In this document: positions 17,633-24,506 of the stretch, one piece after another | How the letters are laid out: each line of letters opens with the position of its first letter | Numbering within the stretch: position 1 is the stretch's first letter | IMG/VR virus record: IMGVR_UViG_3300020034_000049 | Location: 1 to 35,102 of that record | Strand: one strand, 5' to 3' | Source: a virus | Length of the DNA: 35,102 bases | Notes under the pieces: model-generated | Seen by the model: only the letters and a program-made list of their open reading frames with translations | Told to the model about the DNA's origin: nothing | Databases searched by the model: none | Position numbers and translations under genes: made by a program

Positions 17633-19264
17633 TTAACCCGCCGATAATATTGCCCAGTCATAGTCGTAAATCTTGGTTGAAGGAGATGGATTGGTAATTT
17701 CTATATCATCTGTTTCACTCACTGAGATTTTTGGTACTCCAATTGATGACGTATACAAATCAGCTACTTGCTGAGCACTTAGCTGACTATCAAATATTTC
17801 TACCGACCCGACCTGGGCGTCACCAGCAATAGTGATGTCTCCAGTAATAGCAGATGCTTTGACAATGGTATACATTACCCATTCACCAATATTTAACGTA
17901 CCGCCAGCCTGGCCATTTTTGTATGTAGTTCCCGAAACACTAATGGTCGGTGTTGTGCTAGTCAATTTCTTCATCCAAATATTGATTGTGAATGCATCAT
18001 CGGGTACACCAGAAGTGTCTTCACTGATTGTAATTGTTCCACCATCCAGTTTGGTACCAAAATTATCTTTTTGTTCAAGTGGATGCGTATCGAACATCGG
18101 TGACGCTGGCGCAGTGAATGTTGTTGTTCTGCCATCAATAACAGGAATGTTACCGGTGAGTATGCCTACGATTTGAAGGTTATCGACATAGGATGGGTCA
18201 TCGGTAACCCCACCTGCAAATGAAATTTTGATATGTAGGTCTTGGTCAAATGGGTCAAAGCCATCAGGGACCAAGTCAATGGATTGTCCTTGTATTGGCG
18301 TTTCCCAGGTAGTTCCATCAAGAGAAACTTCTAGCTCGGCTCCCTGAGCGTCCCATGTCAAAGAAATGCCATATATGCTTGATGTGCCAGAATCTAGATT
18401 AACTACACTCTGCCACGTACCAGCAACGCTGTCACCTTCGATAAGCTGAGGCACAAGCTGTGAATCAACAACAGTGACTTGGTCTAAGACACCAAGTTTC
18501 CAATCACTGTCTGTTGAAAAAACAGTTTTCAAATATACATCAGATTCTTGTAGTGATAATGGAAATCTGTTACCGCCGAATGACGTGGCTACACCAGCAG
18601 CCAATGTGGCTCTGCGAGCAGCATTGAAATGAGATTTGACACTTTCTGTATTCAAGGCACTACCGAAAATAGCAACGGCATTGACCGCAACCTTTTGAGA
18701 TGATACTGAGGTTCCAAGCCATAGCTTTCCATCTGTTGTTACAAATGTGTCCGACTGCTGAATATCAGTGATATCTACTTCACCAACTAACACGCCATCT
18801 ACAAATAATTGATTTTTGTCAACGGTGTGAACACCAACAATATGTACATTTCTCTTGATACCAATGTCGTAGCTGACTTTTGCTTCGCCAGCACTCATAT
18901 ATTTGGTTGAGAATGAGACGACGGTGTCGTCTATTGTGATTCCATCATAGTTAGAAGCAGAACTAAGTACTTTCTGTACCGAGCCGGTACCAGATTCATC
19001 AATAACTCTAACTGATGCTTCTAAAGAAAATGATTGACGTTCATATCCTTGAACATATACCGGCGAATCAAATTTCGCGTCCACAGAGTTACTAAACACA
19101 GAAGAAAACACTGCGCCCGCAACTAAAGACGCAGCGGTGGTTGGGGAGCCAGTGTCCATAACACCAGCACGGCTATATCCTGAATAATCTTGGAAAGGTG
19201 CAGAATCATCAAGCATCCATAATCCAAGAGGTTTGTCATTCAGAATTGATAGATAATAACTCAT
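17633..19264 (-). CDS. LamG/concanavalin-like tail fibre or minor tail protein
   Basis: 543 residues. Residues 1-215 read as a concanavalin A-like (LamG) jelly roll: PLGLWMLDDSAPFQDYSGYSR, SFSLEASVRV, NVHIVGVHT, NQLFVDGVLVGEV, KLWLGT and a closing NAVAIFGSALN helix. A middle beta region follows, and a second LamG-like unit around 400-515 (AFTINIWMKKL, WVMYTIVKASAI, GSVEIFDSQLSAQQVADLY). Such domains bind carbohydrate, so host surface recognition is likely. The ATG lies seven bases after TATAAT with no Shine-Dalgarno (leaderless). It is isolated from the other tail genes, between endolysin and portal operons. Confidence 0.75.
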   Translation of the reverse strand: MSYYLSILNDKPLGLWMLDDSAPFQDYSGYSRAGVMDTGSPTTAASLVAGAVFSSVFSNSVDAKFDSPVYVQGYERQSFSLEASVRVIDESGTGSVQKVLSSASNYDGITIDDTVVSFSTKYMSAGEAKVSYDIGIKRNVHIVGVHTVDKNQLFVDGVLVGEVDITDIQQSDTFVTTDGKLWLGTSVSSQKVAVNAVAIFGSALNTESVKSHFNAARRATLAAGVATSFGGNRFPLSLQESDVYLKTVFSTDSDWKLGVLDQVTVVDSQLVPQLIEGDSVAGTWQSVVNLDSGTSSIYGISLTWDAQGAELEVSLDGTTWETPIQGQSIDLVPDGFDPFDQDLHIKISFAGGVTDDPSYVDNLQIVGILTGNIPVIDGRTTTFTAPASPMFDTHPLEQKDNFGTKLDGGTITISEDTSGVPDDAFTINIWMKKLTSTTPTISVSGTTYKNGQAGGTLNIGEWVMYTIVKASAITGDITIAGDAQVGSVEIFDSQLSAQQVADLYTSSIGVPKISVSETDDIEITNPSPSTKIYDYDWAILSAG

Positions 19265-19271
19265 ATTTGTG

Positions 19272-19300
19272 ATTATACAATGACAAAGGCCCTATAGCAA
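19272..19300 (-). promoter_or_regulatory. Leaderless-type promoter of the LamG gene
   Basis: Minus strand TTGCTA (19300-19295), 17 bases, TATAAT (19277-19272), seven bases (cacaaat), ATG at 19264. The -35 box lies inside the terminator hairpin at 19286-19319. Confidence 0.65.
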
Positions 19301-19319
19301 ACAAATGCTATAGGGCCTT
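19286..19319 (-). terminator. Terminator hairpin after the endolysin transcript
   Basis: A perfect 14-bp stem (aaggccctatagca / tgctatagggcctt) with a six-base loop, followed on the minus strand by TGTCATTG. It lies 145 bases after the endolysin stop. The same bases supply the -35 element for the LamG promoter. Confidence 0.8.
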
Positions 19320-19462
19320 GCCAGTAATTGACAACCAATCCTAAGGCATTCGGGAGAGCGAATCACCAAATCTGCACTTATGAACTGGATATTATCCAAC
19401 GACTCGGGGCTTCTCAGCCTCGGCACAATTTAAGTGTAACACATTGTGTTTTAATTTTCAAA
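19320..19462 (-). other. Structured non-coding stretch after the endolysin gene
   Basis: No ORF or tRNA fits here. On the minus strand several stem-loops line up: CGAGGCT-GAGA-AGCCCCG, TGGA-TAATA-TCCA, ATTCG-loop-CGAAT, and a nested TGCC(ATTG-gttgt-CAAT)GGCA. The succession is more than expected for spacer. It may be a 3' untranslated region with stability elements or a small RNA ended by the terminator at 19286-19319. I do not recognise a known RNA family. Confidence 0.35.
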
Positions 19463-20218
19463 TTATGAAATTACTTGGTAACCAAATCGCTCGATGTACC
19501 TTGCCGTCATCGGTCCAACAAATCCATCCTGAACCAGTCCACCCTTGGCTTGTACACATTTAACCGCATACTTGAAGAATTCTCCTTTTCGAGTACTCCT
19601 CCAAGCTGAGAATGTTGTTTCAGGAATAACCTTCAATCCGGAATAAGCAAATGCCATGAACTGCTCCGCATCGTATTCATAACTGTGGGAAATTGGCTTT
19701 CCTGCTGCTGCCATATTCAATGCTGTTGCTGACATAGTAACGTCTTTAGTTGGTGTACCCGGCCGTGCCTTGTTCTTCAAGACATTGTAATACTCCCAGG
19801 TCATTAGGCGGTATCCAGATGGACCATCGTCTTCACCGTTACCAGCGAGACCATTATGCCCATTCTTGTATGAAGTTACTTGGTTCTTGGCACCACGACT
19901 TAAATCATCATCTCCAATTGCAATGCAATGGATATGCCACGGCCAACTTCCCTGACTTGGATTACGTAGCCATGCCGCAAAGCCGACTCGACGTAGATTC
20001 TTCACCGCCGTGTATCGCTGAGAGCTAGATAGGTCTCTAGCTCTTACGTCTAATGCGCCTCCACCATCGTGGGTGCCTGCGGAAGCTGAAACCTTACCAC
20101 TATAAGAACCCTGTGTAATTGTTAAATTAAATCCGCATAGTCGCTCTGCTTCCAAAAACATGTCTCTGGTACGAACATTAGTGCGCATTCCTTGATAGGT
20201 AACTCTTTTCTCTGTCAT
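19463..20218 (-). CDS. Endolysin, M15-type peptidase
   Basis: 251 residues. The N-terminal domain carries the M15 peptidase zinc site pattern: GTHDGGGALDVRARD (His and Asp ligands at about 49 and 55) and WPWHIHCIAIG (third ligand near 95). This family cuts peptide cross-links of peptidoglycan. After a linker, the C-terminal half contains a helical unit with GLVQDGFVGPMTARYIERFG, resembling a peptidoglycan-binding repeat. No signal peptide is seen, so export needs a holin, not found here. It has its own promoter (20242-20270), a strong Shine-Dalgarno (GGAGGTG) and an inverted repeat that would hide that Shine-Dalgarno on read-through RNA. Confidence 0.85.
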   Translation of the reverse strand: MTEKRVTYQGMRTNVRTRDMFLEAERLCGFNLTITQGSYSGKVSASAGTHDGGGALDVRARDLSSSQRYTAVKNLRRVGFAAWLRNPSQGSWPWHIHCIAIGDDDLSRGAKNQVTSYKNGHNGLAGNGEDDGPSGYRLMTWEYYNVLKNKARPGTPTKDVTMSATALNMAAAGKPISHSYEYDAEQFMAFAYSGLKVIPETTFSAWRSTRKGEFFKYAVKCVQAKGGLVQDGFVGPMTARYIERFGYQVIS

Positions 20219-20228
20219 TATCTTTTCA

Positions 20229-20260
20229 CCTCCATATTTGCATTATAAACAATATGGAGG
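20229..20260 (-). promoter_or_regulatory. Inverted repeat sequestering the endolysin ribosome-binding site
   Basis: CCTCCATAT (mRNA sense, 20260-20252) is complementary over nine bases to ATATGGAGG (20237-20229), which contains the endolysin Shine-Dalgarno; the loop is 14 bases. The TATAAT box is in the loop, so RNA from the local promoter starts near 20235 and lacks the left arm. Read-through RNA from the reductase gene would fold and block initiation. Confidence 0.65.
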
Positions 20261-20270
20261 CAAAAAGCAA
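20242..20270 (-). promoter_or_regulatory. Endolysin promoter
   Basis: Minus strand TTGCTT (20270-20265), 17 bases, TATAAT (20247-20242). The -35 is formed by the T-rich tail of the reductase terminator. Predicted start near 20235, leaving a leader with GGAGGTG eight bases before the ATG. Confidence 0.7.
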
Positions 20271-20294
20271 AGCCGGGCCTTTGGGCCCGGCTTT
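20269..20294 (-). terminator. Terminator of the ribonucleotide reductase gene
   Basis: A perfect 11-bp stem (aaagccgggcc / ggcccggcttt), four-base loop, then TTTGCTTTTT on the minus strand. It lies 15 bases after the reductase stop: a strong intrinsic terminator. Confidence 0.92.
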
Positions 20295-20309
20295 ATAACT
20301 TATTGTTAT

Positions 20310-23300
20310 TTATACATTACCAATTGAAACTAATTCACAATTTGAACTTGTACAACTCAAGCTTTGAACACCTGTTGTAGTGTCTTCATGTTCATATGCT
20401 GACAGCATAGACCAGTCGATTACTTTTGGCATATCGGCTGCAAACTGTTTATATGTTGTAATATCACAGTCCTGATAAGGAGCCTGCTTATAGCTATGCT
20501 CTGAATATGGTAGGAACGAAATTCCTCCAATGTATTCCCAATTCTCATATACCCAGTTAGCCACCTCAATCCATTCATGCTCACGGACACTAATAGTAAT
20601 CGAAGGATTATGCTCAGTCCAATGAATCTTATAAGCCTTCCAAAGATTCAAATGCTCAATAGCAGTCAAATCATTACGAGTCAAAGCATCTTTTGGTGCT
20701 TTCTGTGGAAAATAAAATACCGTAGTACTATTTGGCTTCGTCACATCTGGCTCATTTGGAATACCGACATCTTTCATAAACTCAGTTAATGGGTCTTTAT
20801 TATCCGCACGAACTGACCTGATGTAATAGTCATTATGCCAAGGATGCATACCCGAACTGGACGCGGTTAGTTGACTTACGGTACCGCTCGGCTTCACGGT
20901 TGTAATTGCTGTAGACAAATTAATGCCCATCTTCTTTGCAAATTTATCATTTGTCTGAACAGCTTCCTCACGCATCATCTGAAGGAATGACTTCAAAGCG
21001 TCCAATCCTTCAGAGCCATTCAAAACCTTATGACCCATTTGGCCGGTAAGAGAAACGCCCAATAAGCGCTCTTCCTCACAGTTGTCTCTCCAAATCTTCC
21101 TAAGATATTTGAAATCTGTTAAGGATGACTGGATAGTGCCCAAAATGGTAGCAATTTCAACCTTTTTGCATAAGTCTTGCAGTGTGTCGTCTGCCTCAAC
21201 AACAACCTCTGTCAGATTACATAGTTGCTTGGAGCGAAGTAAAATCTCTGCGCAGTTGTGAACATATATACCATTCGCATCAAAGGCTGATACCTCTGGA
21301 ACTGCGGCGTCATATACATCCTCAATTCCGTCAGCCTCAACACCTGAAACTGCTGAAAACTCAGAATTCTTATAAAGTTCTCTGACTCCTGAGAGCATAG
21401 CCTTCAACTTATCCTGCTTATCGTTGTCGCTAAATCCAATTCTCTCGGCGAACTTCGCGATAGCCTGTCTAGAAATAATCAGTTCGTGTCCAGCCTTGCA
21501 ATCGTAGAAAGCAAGATTTCGATTTGAATCAGGCAACAGTCTCTTGCCTGCTGGGACGCGGTCAAAGTAAATCTTAGACATTATACCGAGACGAGAAAGC
21601 ATCTTTTGAACTCCATCAAGGTTATTCTTACTGGTGCTCCATAAGCGCACAGACTGACCTTTGTTTCGACCACCCTGTGCGGAACCATCGGCGTCAAAAT
21701 ATCCTCTTAAAAATCCTTCATAGAACTGGCTGGATGCTTCCTGAATCTGCTTGGTGACCTCTTTGTTTCCCCTGGTGACTCCAAATTTGAGTGCTAGGTC
21801 AGTCAACTGTCTACTGGTCGCGCGCCACTTTTTTTCATTACCAACTTGGGTACAAAGGTTAAACTCAGCAGAAATACCTATATTTTCCATGGCTGATACA
21901 GCATGAGCCATTATGCTTTCAGAAGACTCCCACACATCAATACAAGCATTTTGTCCAAAGGTTCCGTCTCCCACCAAAAGACCAATAATATACCCCTCAG
22001 AATCCGTGCCTGCACCCAACCAAGAGTGTCCTTCATTCTGGGAGAGACGAACTCGGTCGGAGATAGTAATATCTTTCAATTCCTTCCATCCAGATTCAGT
22101 TAAAATCTGGTGATTGTCAGTTGCACGAACTGACATTCCATTGTCAAGAGTCATCTTATATACTCGCTTGGTGCCCGTGTAATAGAATCCGGTAGAGTCG
22201 TACATCTGACCATCAAGCATAAGGTTGGTTTTGTGTTCTACGATGTCACCAATCTGTCGCGGACCAAAATCGGTCATTACCCATGTGTCAGCCGGTAAGC
22301 ATGGGTTAAGTCCTGCAATCTTGGACAAGTCCCTTCTAGGAGCCAAATCACTACCGCGCAATCCCTGCATGTTGATGATACCGCGCTCACCTGATTTTGA
22401 TTCATATAGATTACCCCATTCTTGTAGGAACTCACCAATTGATGGTTTCTTGTAATATACCGCCGAGTTGTTAGATAGGGCCCGCTGTTGATTATTCTCC
22501 CACCAAGCACCATTTTTGGCCTTTGCCATTTCGTAGTCATGTAGGTCAGATTGAGAAATCAAGGCTGAGTTGTGTGTTATCAAACCATCAGCGGTAAATT
22601 CATGAATATCGTCCACTTCGATATCCCATGTTTGTTGAATGATTCCAAGGTCCACTGACTCTACTTGTACCGGTGCGAATGGGTAGTCGGCGGACACAAT
22701 ATTATTATCCACGGCCCATTGACGAGTGGTATTTCTCGACTTGAAGGAAATTTTCCATTCTGCTGGATATGTGAAGTCACCTGTATTCTTTGTTCTAACA
22801 GGAATATCACGTTCAGAATATTCTCCCACTACAGAAAGATACATGTCTGCGCCAGTCCGAGTTGCTACAGAGATTGTCCAAAAATCTTGCGCATTTTCTC
22901 CATTGTCTCGTCTGCGCTGAGCGGAAAATGTTTGAATGACAGATGGAATTCCTAGAGAACGTAGCAATCCAGACAGGTCGCTTGCAAACTTCCTATAGAT
23001 TGTGGTGGCCTGGTCAATCCCACCATCGCTACGTATCCTTCCATCGCTATCCAACACCCCGGCCAAATAGGCTGCGCGCACATCTTTCTGTGCAGACTTG
23101 ATAAACTCAGGAATCTTGATTGGAACATTCGGATTCTTTATATTTTCGGCAAACCATAGGGCCAGACCAGTAGAATTGACGCGCAGTCTAATTCCCTTAC
23201 CGCTGTGTGAGTCCTTGGCGACCGTCCCAGACACGCCAAACTTATCAGCGAAAATAGAATTCGCTCGCTCAAGGGTGGCCCACTCATCTTCGTGTCCTGA

Positions 23301-24470
23301 AATCTCAATACCCTTGATATGAATGTGTCCATCACCATGAACAAGACCAATAAGCCAGGCCGTATCAGTGTCAAGAATTTCTGGAATATCGAATGGCTTG
23401 GCATTGAAGTGTCCTGTGTAGGATGGAACCGGTAGGGATTGAATCTCTCCATCATACCCGGCCAAATCCCAAACAAGTCTGTCGCCTGAAACTAGGCTTC
23501 CGGCTTCCTTGAATTCGTATGTGTTTACGGAGTTAAAGACCGCAATCCGATGATTTGGAGTCATTTCTGATTGCCCATACTGATGCTTGACGATGATTGT
23601 TTGCTGCTTGCCGGAATCAACTTTGGCCGACACACGGGCCTTACGACCACCTGAAATAATCATATCTCCAACGGCAATATCTTTACCAAGCACTACACCA
23701 CGATGGGTAGAAATCTCTGTGTAATCTCCAAAACATCTTCTCACACCACCAACAACAACAACCTCACCAACCTTACACATGATGTCGTGAGCTTCCAAGG
23801 ATGTTAATCTTCTTCCGGCCGCATTCTTGAAAATACCAATTGTGAAATCAAACAAATCAATTAATGACTGTGGGCCAGATGCTCTGCCGCCGAATGTCTT
23901 CAGCCTTTCACCCGCAGGACGCACATTAGAAATATCGATGACTGGAATTTGTCCAGCATATAGCATAGCAATCAACTCACGGAAACCACGAGCCCAGCCA
24001 GCTTTTGAATCGGCAACCACAATTGTACTACCAGTTTGCTCAAAGTGCTCATTTACAGTTGGCAGCTTTGAGACATGTTCCTTTTCTACGCTAAACCCAA
24101 GACCTACACCATTCATTAGAATGTATAGTGCCTCATCAAACGCCCTTGCGTCATCGATAGCAATGAATGAACAGTTATACCCAGCTAAATTCTCACGTTG
24201 CAACGCTGGTCCGGCCGTCATAAGACAACGCATAGATGGCATAACCTTGTGATTCAAGATTGCATCTGTAGCTTCATCCCAAAAAGTCTTTTCAATGGCA
24301 CCAGGATATTTGATGTCAGCATGCGTACGCATAAAGCTAATATAGCGGTCAACTGTCTCTGTCCATGTTTCACGACGATTTTCCTCTTCTAGCCACCTGC
24401 TATAGCGGGAAACGCTAATAAATGCTCTATAAGGGTCAGAAATATGTCCACCCTCCGTCAAAATAGACAA
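20310..24470 (-). CDS. nrdJ: Class II (adenosylcobalamin-dependent) ribonucleotide reductase with two inteins
   Basis: This enzyme makes deoxyribonucleotides for replication. The 1,386-residue precursor loses 389- and 349-residue inteins to leave an enzyme of about 648 residues. Seen in the extein: AGYNCSFI (first redox Cys), GGVRR-S at the first splice site, NP-C-AEI with the radical Cys at the second splice site, CNLTEV, TTVKPSGTVSQLT (phosphate-binding motif), and a C-terminal CTSSNC redox pair. The last feature and the single-chain form fit the monomeric NrdJ type, so no NrdB partner is needed. The TTG at 24470 has GGAGGA seven bases upstream and is preferred to the TTG at 24485. No cobalamin riboswitch is seen upstream. 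A strong terminator follows. Confidence 0.92.
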   Translation of the reverse strand: MSILTEGGHISDPYRAFISVSRYSRWLEEENRRETWTETVDRYISFMRTHADIKYPGAIEKTFWDEATDAILNHKVMPSMRCLMTAGPALQRENLAGYNCSFIAIDDARAFDEALYILMNGVGLGFSVEKEHVSKLPTVNEHFEQTGSTIVVADSKAGWARGFRELIAMLYAGQIPVIDISNVRPAGERLKTFGGRASGPQSLIDLFDFTIGIFKNAAGRRLTSLEAHDIMCKVGEVVVVGGVRRCFGDYTEISTHRGVVLGKDIAVGDMIISGGRKARVSAKVDSGKQQTIIVKHQYGQSEMTPNHRIAVFNSVNTYEFKEAGSLVSGDRLVWDLAGYDGEIQSLPVPSYTGHFNAKPFDIPEILDTDTAWLIGLVHGDGHIHIKGIEISGHEDEWATLERANSIFADKFGVSGTVAKDSHSGKGIRLRVNSTGLALWFAENIKNPNVPIKIPEFIKSAQKDVRAAYLAGVLDSDGRIRSDGGIDQATTIYRKFASDLSGLLRSLGIPSVIQTFSAQRRRDNGENAQDFWTISVATRTGADMYLSVVGEYSERDIPVRTKNTGDFTYPAEWKISFKSRNTTRQWAVDNNIVSADYPFAPVQVESVDLGIIQQTWDIEVDDIHEFTADGLITHNSALISQSDLHDYEMAKAKNGAWWENNQQRALSNNSAVYYKKPSIGEFLQEWGNLYESKSGERGIINMQGLRGSDLAPRRDLSKIAGLNPCLPADTWVMTDFGPRQIGDIVEHKTNLMLDGQMYDSTGFYYTGTKRVYKMTLDNGMSVRATDNHQILTESGWKELKDITISDRVRLSQNEGHSWLGAGTDSEGYIIGLLVGDGTFGQNACIDVWESSESIMAHAVSAMENIGISAEFNLCTQVGNEKKWRATSRQLTDLALKFGVTRGNKEVTKQIQEASSQFYEGFLRGYFDADGSAQGGRNKGQSVRLWSTSKNNLDGVQKMLSRLGIMSKIYFDRVPAGKRLLPDSNRNLAFYDCKAGHELIISRQAIAKFAERIGFSDNDKQDKLKAMLSGVRELYKNSEFSAVSGVEADGIEDVYDAAVPEVSAFDANGIYVHNCAEILLRSKQLCNLTEVVVEADDTLQDLCKKVEIATILGTIQSSLTDFKYLRKIWRDNCEEERLLGVSLTGQMGHKVLNGSEGLDALKSFLQMMREEAVQTNDKFAKKMGINLSTAITTVKPSGTVSQLTASSSGMHPWHNDYYIRSVRADNKDPLTEFMKDVGIPNEPDVTKPNSTTVFYFPQKAPKDALTRNDLTAIEHLNLWKAYKIHWTEHNPSITISVREHEWIEVANWVYENWEYIGGISFLPYSEHSYKQAPYQDCDITTYKQFAADMPKVIDWSMLSAYEHEDTTTGVQSLSCTSSNCELVSIGNV
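21255..22301 (-). other. Intein 2 in the reductase, at the active-site Cys, with LAGLIDADG endonuclease
   Basis: 349 residues, from Cys (CLPADTWVMTDFGPRQ) to IYVHN, followed by extein Cys of CAEILL. Splicing motifs: block B ATDNH and the final FDANGIYVHN. LAGLIDADG helices: IIGLLVGDGTF and FLRGYFDADGSA. The +1 extein residue is the predicted thiyl-radical Cys of NPCAE, so no activity is possible before splicing. Confidence 0.93.
22569..23735 (-). other. Intein 1 in the reductase, with LAGLIDADG endonuclease
   Basis: 389 residues, from Cys (CFGDYTEISTHRG) to the terminal ITHN, followed by extein Ser (SALISQSDL). Splicing motifs: block A with C1, block B TPNH, block F DIEVDDIHEFTADG. Between them are two LAGLIDADG helices, LIGLVHGDGHI and YLAGVLDSDGRI, so the homing endonuclease looks intact. 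The insertion site is the conserved GGVRR|S motif. Confidence 0.93.
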
Positions 24471-24506
24471 GAAATTGTCCTCCAATATAATTTTGTGTAT
24501 TCTACT

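Follow-up and report, generated by a model that had tools for sequence, protein, structure and literature searches.

The reductase-endolysin junction

The stretch of DNA analysed here (the window) comprises the 35,102 bases of a phage record in IMG/VR, and all features of interest lie on its minus strand (Table 1). Its closest named relatives are the Stanwilliamsviridae, phages of Streptomyces, with which it shares the gene order glycosyltransferase, reductase, endolysin, portal, protease and capsid. The reductase inteins carry homing endonuclease domains, the second lying at a conserved NPC motif. The predicted endolysin has no Pfam match, and a direct search of viral contigs returned no close relatives; its SAGTHDGGGA and HIH motifs are conserved in five relatives, and its gene occupies the position of the annotated endolysins of Streptomyces phages.

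Table 1. Features of the reductase-endolysin region (window coordinates)
Feature	Position	Strand	Details
B12-dependent ribonucleotide reductase, two inteins	20310..24485	-	phrog_367, E 5.6e-165; LAGLIDADG_3, Intein_splicing, Hom_end
Intrinsic terminator 3' of reductase gene	20268..20295	-	12 pairs, 8 GC, loop 4
-35 box TTGCTT	20265..20270	-	as parsed, each of the 28 leaders has a TTG-type -35 here
Left arm (anti-SD) CCTCCATATT, within promoter spacer	20251..20260	-	10-bp perfect repeat
-10 box TATAAT, in loop	20242..20247	-	exact TTGCTT-17-TATAAT match
Predicted transcription start, ~20235 (+/- 2)	20233..20237	-	inferred from -10 position
Right arm AATATGGAGG, includes SD GGAGG	20229..20238	-	perfect inverted repeat with left arm
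Shine-Dalgarno (SD) GGAGG	20229-20233	-	
Endolysin ATG	begins 20218	-	
Endolysin, 251 aa, predicted M15-like peptidase	19463..20218	-	weak phrog_2649 endolysin match, E 3.6e-4
Candidate noncoding RNA, ~150 nt	19275-19428	-	directly after endolysin; promoter-like boxes TTGAAA-17-TACACT, terminator

In the short gap between the two genes, the T-run of the terminator overlaps the -35 box of a promoter-like sequence, TTGCTT-17-TATAAT (20270-20242), which is the sole zero-mismatch match to that pattern in the window, and a promoter scan found no other minus-strand promoter in the gap. On the minus strand CCTCCATATT and AATATGGAGG form a 10-bp perfect inverted repeat. This palindrome occurs once in the window, even when 3 mismatches are allowed, and nowhere else in the 35 kb is there a comparable pair of arms of which the right one resembles an SD. 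A preliminary description of this DNA had noted a strong terminator just upstream and a -10 box in the loop of a stem over the endolysin SD, and both are found as described, with the -10 box between the arms; the stem itself is also present, and only the length given for it, 9 bp, was too short. Judged by their arrangement, the terminator, the promoter and the putative SD-hiding arm are fused into a compact module of ~75 bp. With the predicted start at 20235 +/- 2, an RNA begun locally would be without the entire left arm. If it began at A20235 it would open with the AUG of a frame of 5 codons, which ends in a UAA that overlaps the start codon of the endolysin (UAAUG); this frame is absent from those leaders of relatives that were inspected by eye, and is possibly due to chance.

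Predicted occlusion of the endolysin SD

In the predicted RNA the stem extends to ~17 pairs, because CUUUUU and GUGAAAAG pair as well, and in read-through RNA the terminator and the SD hairpin are predicted to fold side by side. By computation, read-through RNA must spend 18.9 kcal/mol to open the SD and local RNA 0.3; in a longer context it is 16.7 kcal/mol versus 1.1-2.1 for starts from 20240 to 20232, all of these being energies that ignore co-transcriptional folding and proteins. The computed probability that the SD is unpaired in read-through RNA is 0.00. These values (18.9 versus ~0.3-2 kcal/mol) bear out the earlier proposal that the SD is hidden solely in RNA that carries the left arm. 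The fold of the 151-nt region is itself unusually stable (z = -5.75, with none of 200 shuffles as stable), and when the 17-nt spacer alone was shuffled, with all else fixed, the observed occlusion had p = 0.00025.

Strong SD occlusion is also specific to the lysin gene in the three genomes in which promoter-SD units were scanned. In the window, Jay2Jay and Evy the endolysin units cost 18.7, 11.7 and 10.2 kcal/mol, respectively, and all other units cost at most 5.9 kcal/mol; a sister promoter of the window, TTGCTT-18-TATAAT before 12915, is without such an arm.

A genome-wide search for the exact pattern CCTCC..GGAGG..ATG hit the endolysin site of the window, of the IMG/VR contig L003 and of Evy, and several genomes also contained the pattern elsewhere; the pattern TTGCTT-CCTCC-GGAGGTGA retrieved Streptomyces phages together with mixed other matches. 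A search with the exact arms returned 22 stretches, two of them with the promoter-in-loop layout in other phages (L083 and L096) and the rest mixed. In these two unrelated phages (L083 94-124, L096 7576-7610) CCTCCATAT..ATATGGAGG flank a -10 box, separated by 17 bp from a -35 box, directly before a start codon. A small protein family (MSDEGSFSSML..) lies behind a similar SD-hiding hairpin in L082, L086 and L095, where no promoter was found in the hairpin loop. Rfam gave only sub-threshold chance matches at the SD-hairpin site.

Promoter and arm in related phages

Leaders preceding the endolysin gene were first compared in 28 sequences. Besides the window, these came from 23 Streptomyces phages, taken for the most part from a set of 127 Streptomyces records, and from four IMG/VR contigs with an endolysin after the reductase; L190 and L166 were added later. 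The promoter is common to the first 28, with a TTG-type -35 box, a 17-bp spacer and a -10 box in 28/28 leaders; the parse gave Muntaha and BillNye a 19-bp spacer, and GTGCTT at 17-bp spacing fits them better. A terminator precedes the promoter in nearly all 28 leaders, directly so in most.

The anti-SD arm is more restricted. It is present in the window, in L003 and in Samistivirus, with sequences that differ, remain mostly complementary and lie at different positions, as in the arm pairs of Bmoc (ACCTCCTT/AAGGAGGT), Jay2Jay (CTCCTTGG/CCGAGGAG), Daubenski (CCTCTTCGG/CCGAGGAGG) and L003 (ACACCTCCCTT/AAGGGAGGTGT); in Samistivirus pairing is kept partly through wobble and bulges. Karimacvirus, most Loccivirinae, L006, L018 and L081 retain the promoter and have a weak arm or none. 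The preliminary description had proposed to look for compensatory change between the arms; pairing is maintained in several relatives (L003, Samistivirus), and Karimacvirus and most Loccivirinae lack the arm.

This pairing is tested fairly by shuffling the spacer, rather than by a count of covarying positions. The shuffle gave p = 0.001 for L003, 0.014 for Jay2Jay, 0.015 for Bmoc and 0.010 for Daubenski, and non-significant values for L190 (p = 0.10) and Tomas (p = 0.54). Fisher's method, applied to representatives of 14 lineages without leaving out the weak ones, gave a combined value of 1.5e-5, for representatives that are not fully independent, since two are Samistivirus. In the window and L003, moreover, each spacer occludes its own SD better than does any of the other 23 spacers. 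Covariation was counted in eight arms registered by hand, as MAFFT did not register them: both sides had changed in 7/12 pairs, and the score was 0.40 versus 0.05-0.12 for slid-partner controls, a count that is supportive only, since these sequences were selected because they have arms, and this choice and the manual register favour pairing.

Interpretation and comparison with known systems

We regard it as probable that the ~75-bp module guards endolysin synthesis, its SD being hidden in read-through RNA and exposed in local RNA. Polymerase arriving from the reductase gene, the predicted source of read-through RNA, would mostly be halted at the predicted terminator. RNA extending past it would contain both arms and fold so as to hide the endolysin SD, and leaked RNA would consequently not be translated for endolysin. 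The local promoter would yield RNA with a ~17-nt leader, bearing the right arm alone and an open SD, so that endolysin would be made solely from its own promoter. We infer that transcription would begin at the predicted start, that the two RNAs would differ in translation, and that the purpose would be to prevent premature lysis.

Other readings of the palindrome deserve consideration. SD-hiding hairpins serve as regulated RNA switches elsewhere, and a switch responding to temperature, protein or RNase processing could act on all endolysin mRNA if the true start lay upstream of the left arm. Palindromes with the same arms do precede starts that have no obvious promoter in the loop (L082, L086, L095). 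The endolysin promoter, however, is kept in relatives with its -10 box between the arms, the scan of the gap revealed no other from which such an mRNA could start, and a stem that takes 18.9 kcal/mol to open would probably not melt on its own; we consider such a switch quite improbable. Even less credible is an accidental complementarity, without function, between a pyrimidine-rich spacer and the strong SD beside it. Several relatives with the same promoter have no arm, as such an accident would allow, but the shuffle p values of the window (0.00025) and L003 (0.001), the combined value over the 14 representatives (1.5e-5) and the lack of occlusion at other promoters of three genomes argue against it.

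Alternatively, the palindrome might be a DNA operator whose arms, bracketing the -10 box, bind a dimeric repressor or activator that controls the promoter. A precedent exists in Cluster K mycobacteriophages, where the SAS/ESAS inverted repeats, which like those of the window surround a SigA-like promoter near translation starts, are favoured by their authors as protein binding sites (PMC3203893, PMC11373665). Those repeats, however, follow a single consensus that recurs many times in each genome (a 17-bp ESAS repeat with a 13-bp SAS at many genes) and do not support RNA pairing, whereas the phages considered here have one copy with pairing kept, and the window contains a single site at up to 3 mismatches. 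Since the arms vary among relatives in sequence, length, spacing and position in the spacer, and make use of G-U pairs, while complementarity to the SD is retained, we judge an operator unlikely.

The guarding of endolysin synthesis by RNA structure has a close parallel in T4 gene e, as the preliminary description had proposed. There the longer early RNA gives ~100-fold less lysozyme, and late promoters adjoining the ribosome-binding site (RBS) produce RNA in which the stem has lost its 5' strand; the leaders of soc, 49 and I-TevI are grouped with that of gene e, and T4-type relatives differ in having an RBS-hiding leader structure (PMC3014915). The window resembles gene e in that a lysis enzyme is encoded, long upstream RNA is predicted to hide the ribosome-binding site, and the promoter lies within the region coding for the 5' strand of the stem, with a local RNA predicted to be structure-free. 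Pairing of the SD and/or start in RNA from an upstream promoter is found in the window by computation, and a promoter that would yield local RNA without the 5' strand is recognized by sequence. The phages and enzymes are unrelated, however, and in place of the late-only T4 promoter (TATAAATA, gp55) the window has boxes of the vegetative (host) sigma type, with a terminator fused to them. No Sigma70_r2 or Sigma70_r4 domain passed the cut-off in eight related records, among them the window, itself only a 35-kb fragment. From these two observations, the role of the module may be less to set the time of lysis by itself than to prevent leak. The gene e analogy holds for anatomy, SD occlusion and the promoter in the loop; it is weakened by the vegetative-type promoter, since early-versus-late timing in T4 derives from a late-only one, and by the lack of the arm in Karimacvirus and most Loccivirinae. 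Similar logic is shared by Aeh1 mobE and T4 homing endonucleases: mobE belongs to a ribonucleotide reductase operon in which a terminator limits transcription, and its RBS is hidden by a hairpin (PMC2988022). In that case a homing endonuclease gene is protected and the promoters are T4-type, whereas the window's module precedes an endolysin.

The site is best read as a block on read-through RNA like that of T4 gene e, apparently acquired separately, with a host-type promoter replacing the T4 late promoter. More tentatively, actinobacteriophage-like lineages could have evolved a lysin-specific module of this kind on more than one occasion, the choice of start, without a phage sigma factor, blocking endolysin synthesis from leaked RNA. 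If the gene e reading is right, the T4 lysozyme trick would be paralleled separately in a family that has >100 sequenced Streptomyces phages, some of which grow on standard laboratory hosts, making lysis control by RNA shape testable outside T4, and guarding lysin against transcriptional leak would be a general need met by similar solutions.

The candidate noncoding RNA after the endolysin has no Rfam match, and TTAGGAT is invariant in seven aligned sequences; a covariance model built from these seven matched 16/16 further phage records of the RNR clade, with one copy each except for two in G008, and had no match at unrelated endolysin loci. Approximately half of the model's 26 pairs belong to the terminator, so weak matches need care. 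In addition, a recurring promoter, TTGYNN-17/18-TATAAT, precedes structural genes on the minus strand of the window (4143, 12434, 12915, 19300), in some cases following or overlapping a terminator, with 13 matches versus 5.5 expected in the window at up to 2 mismatches. In promoter-like boxes before the genes at 19264, 12399 and 15368 (minus strand) the -10 lies ~7 nt before the ATG, which suggests leaderless mRNAs, and the gene after the conserved RNA in Bmoc and Jay2Jay has a similar -10-to-ATG spacing.
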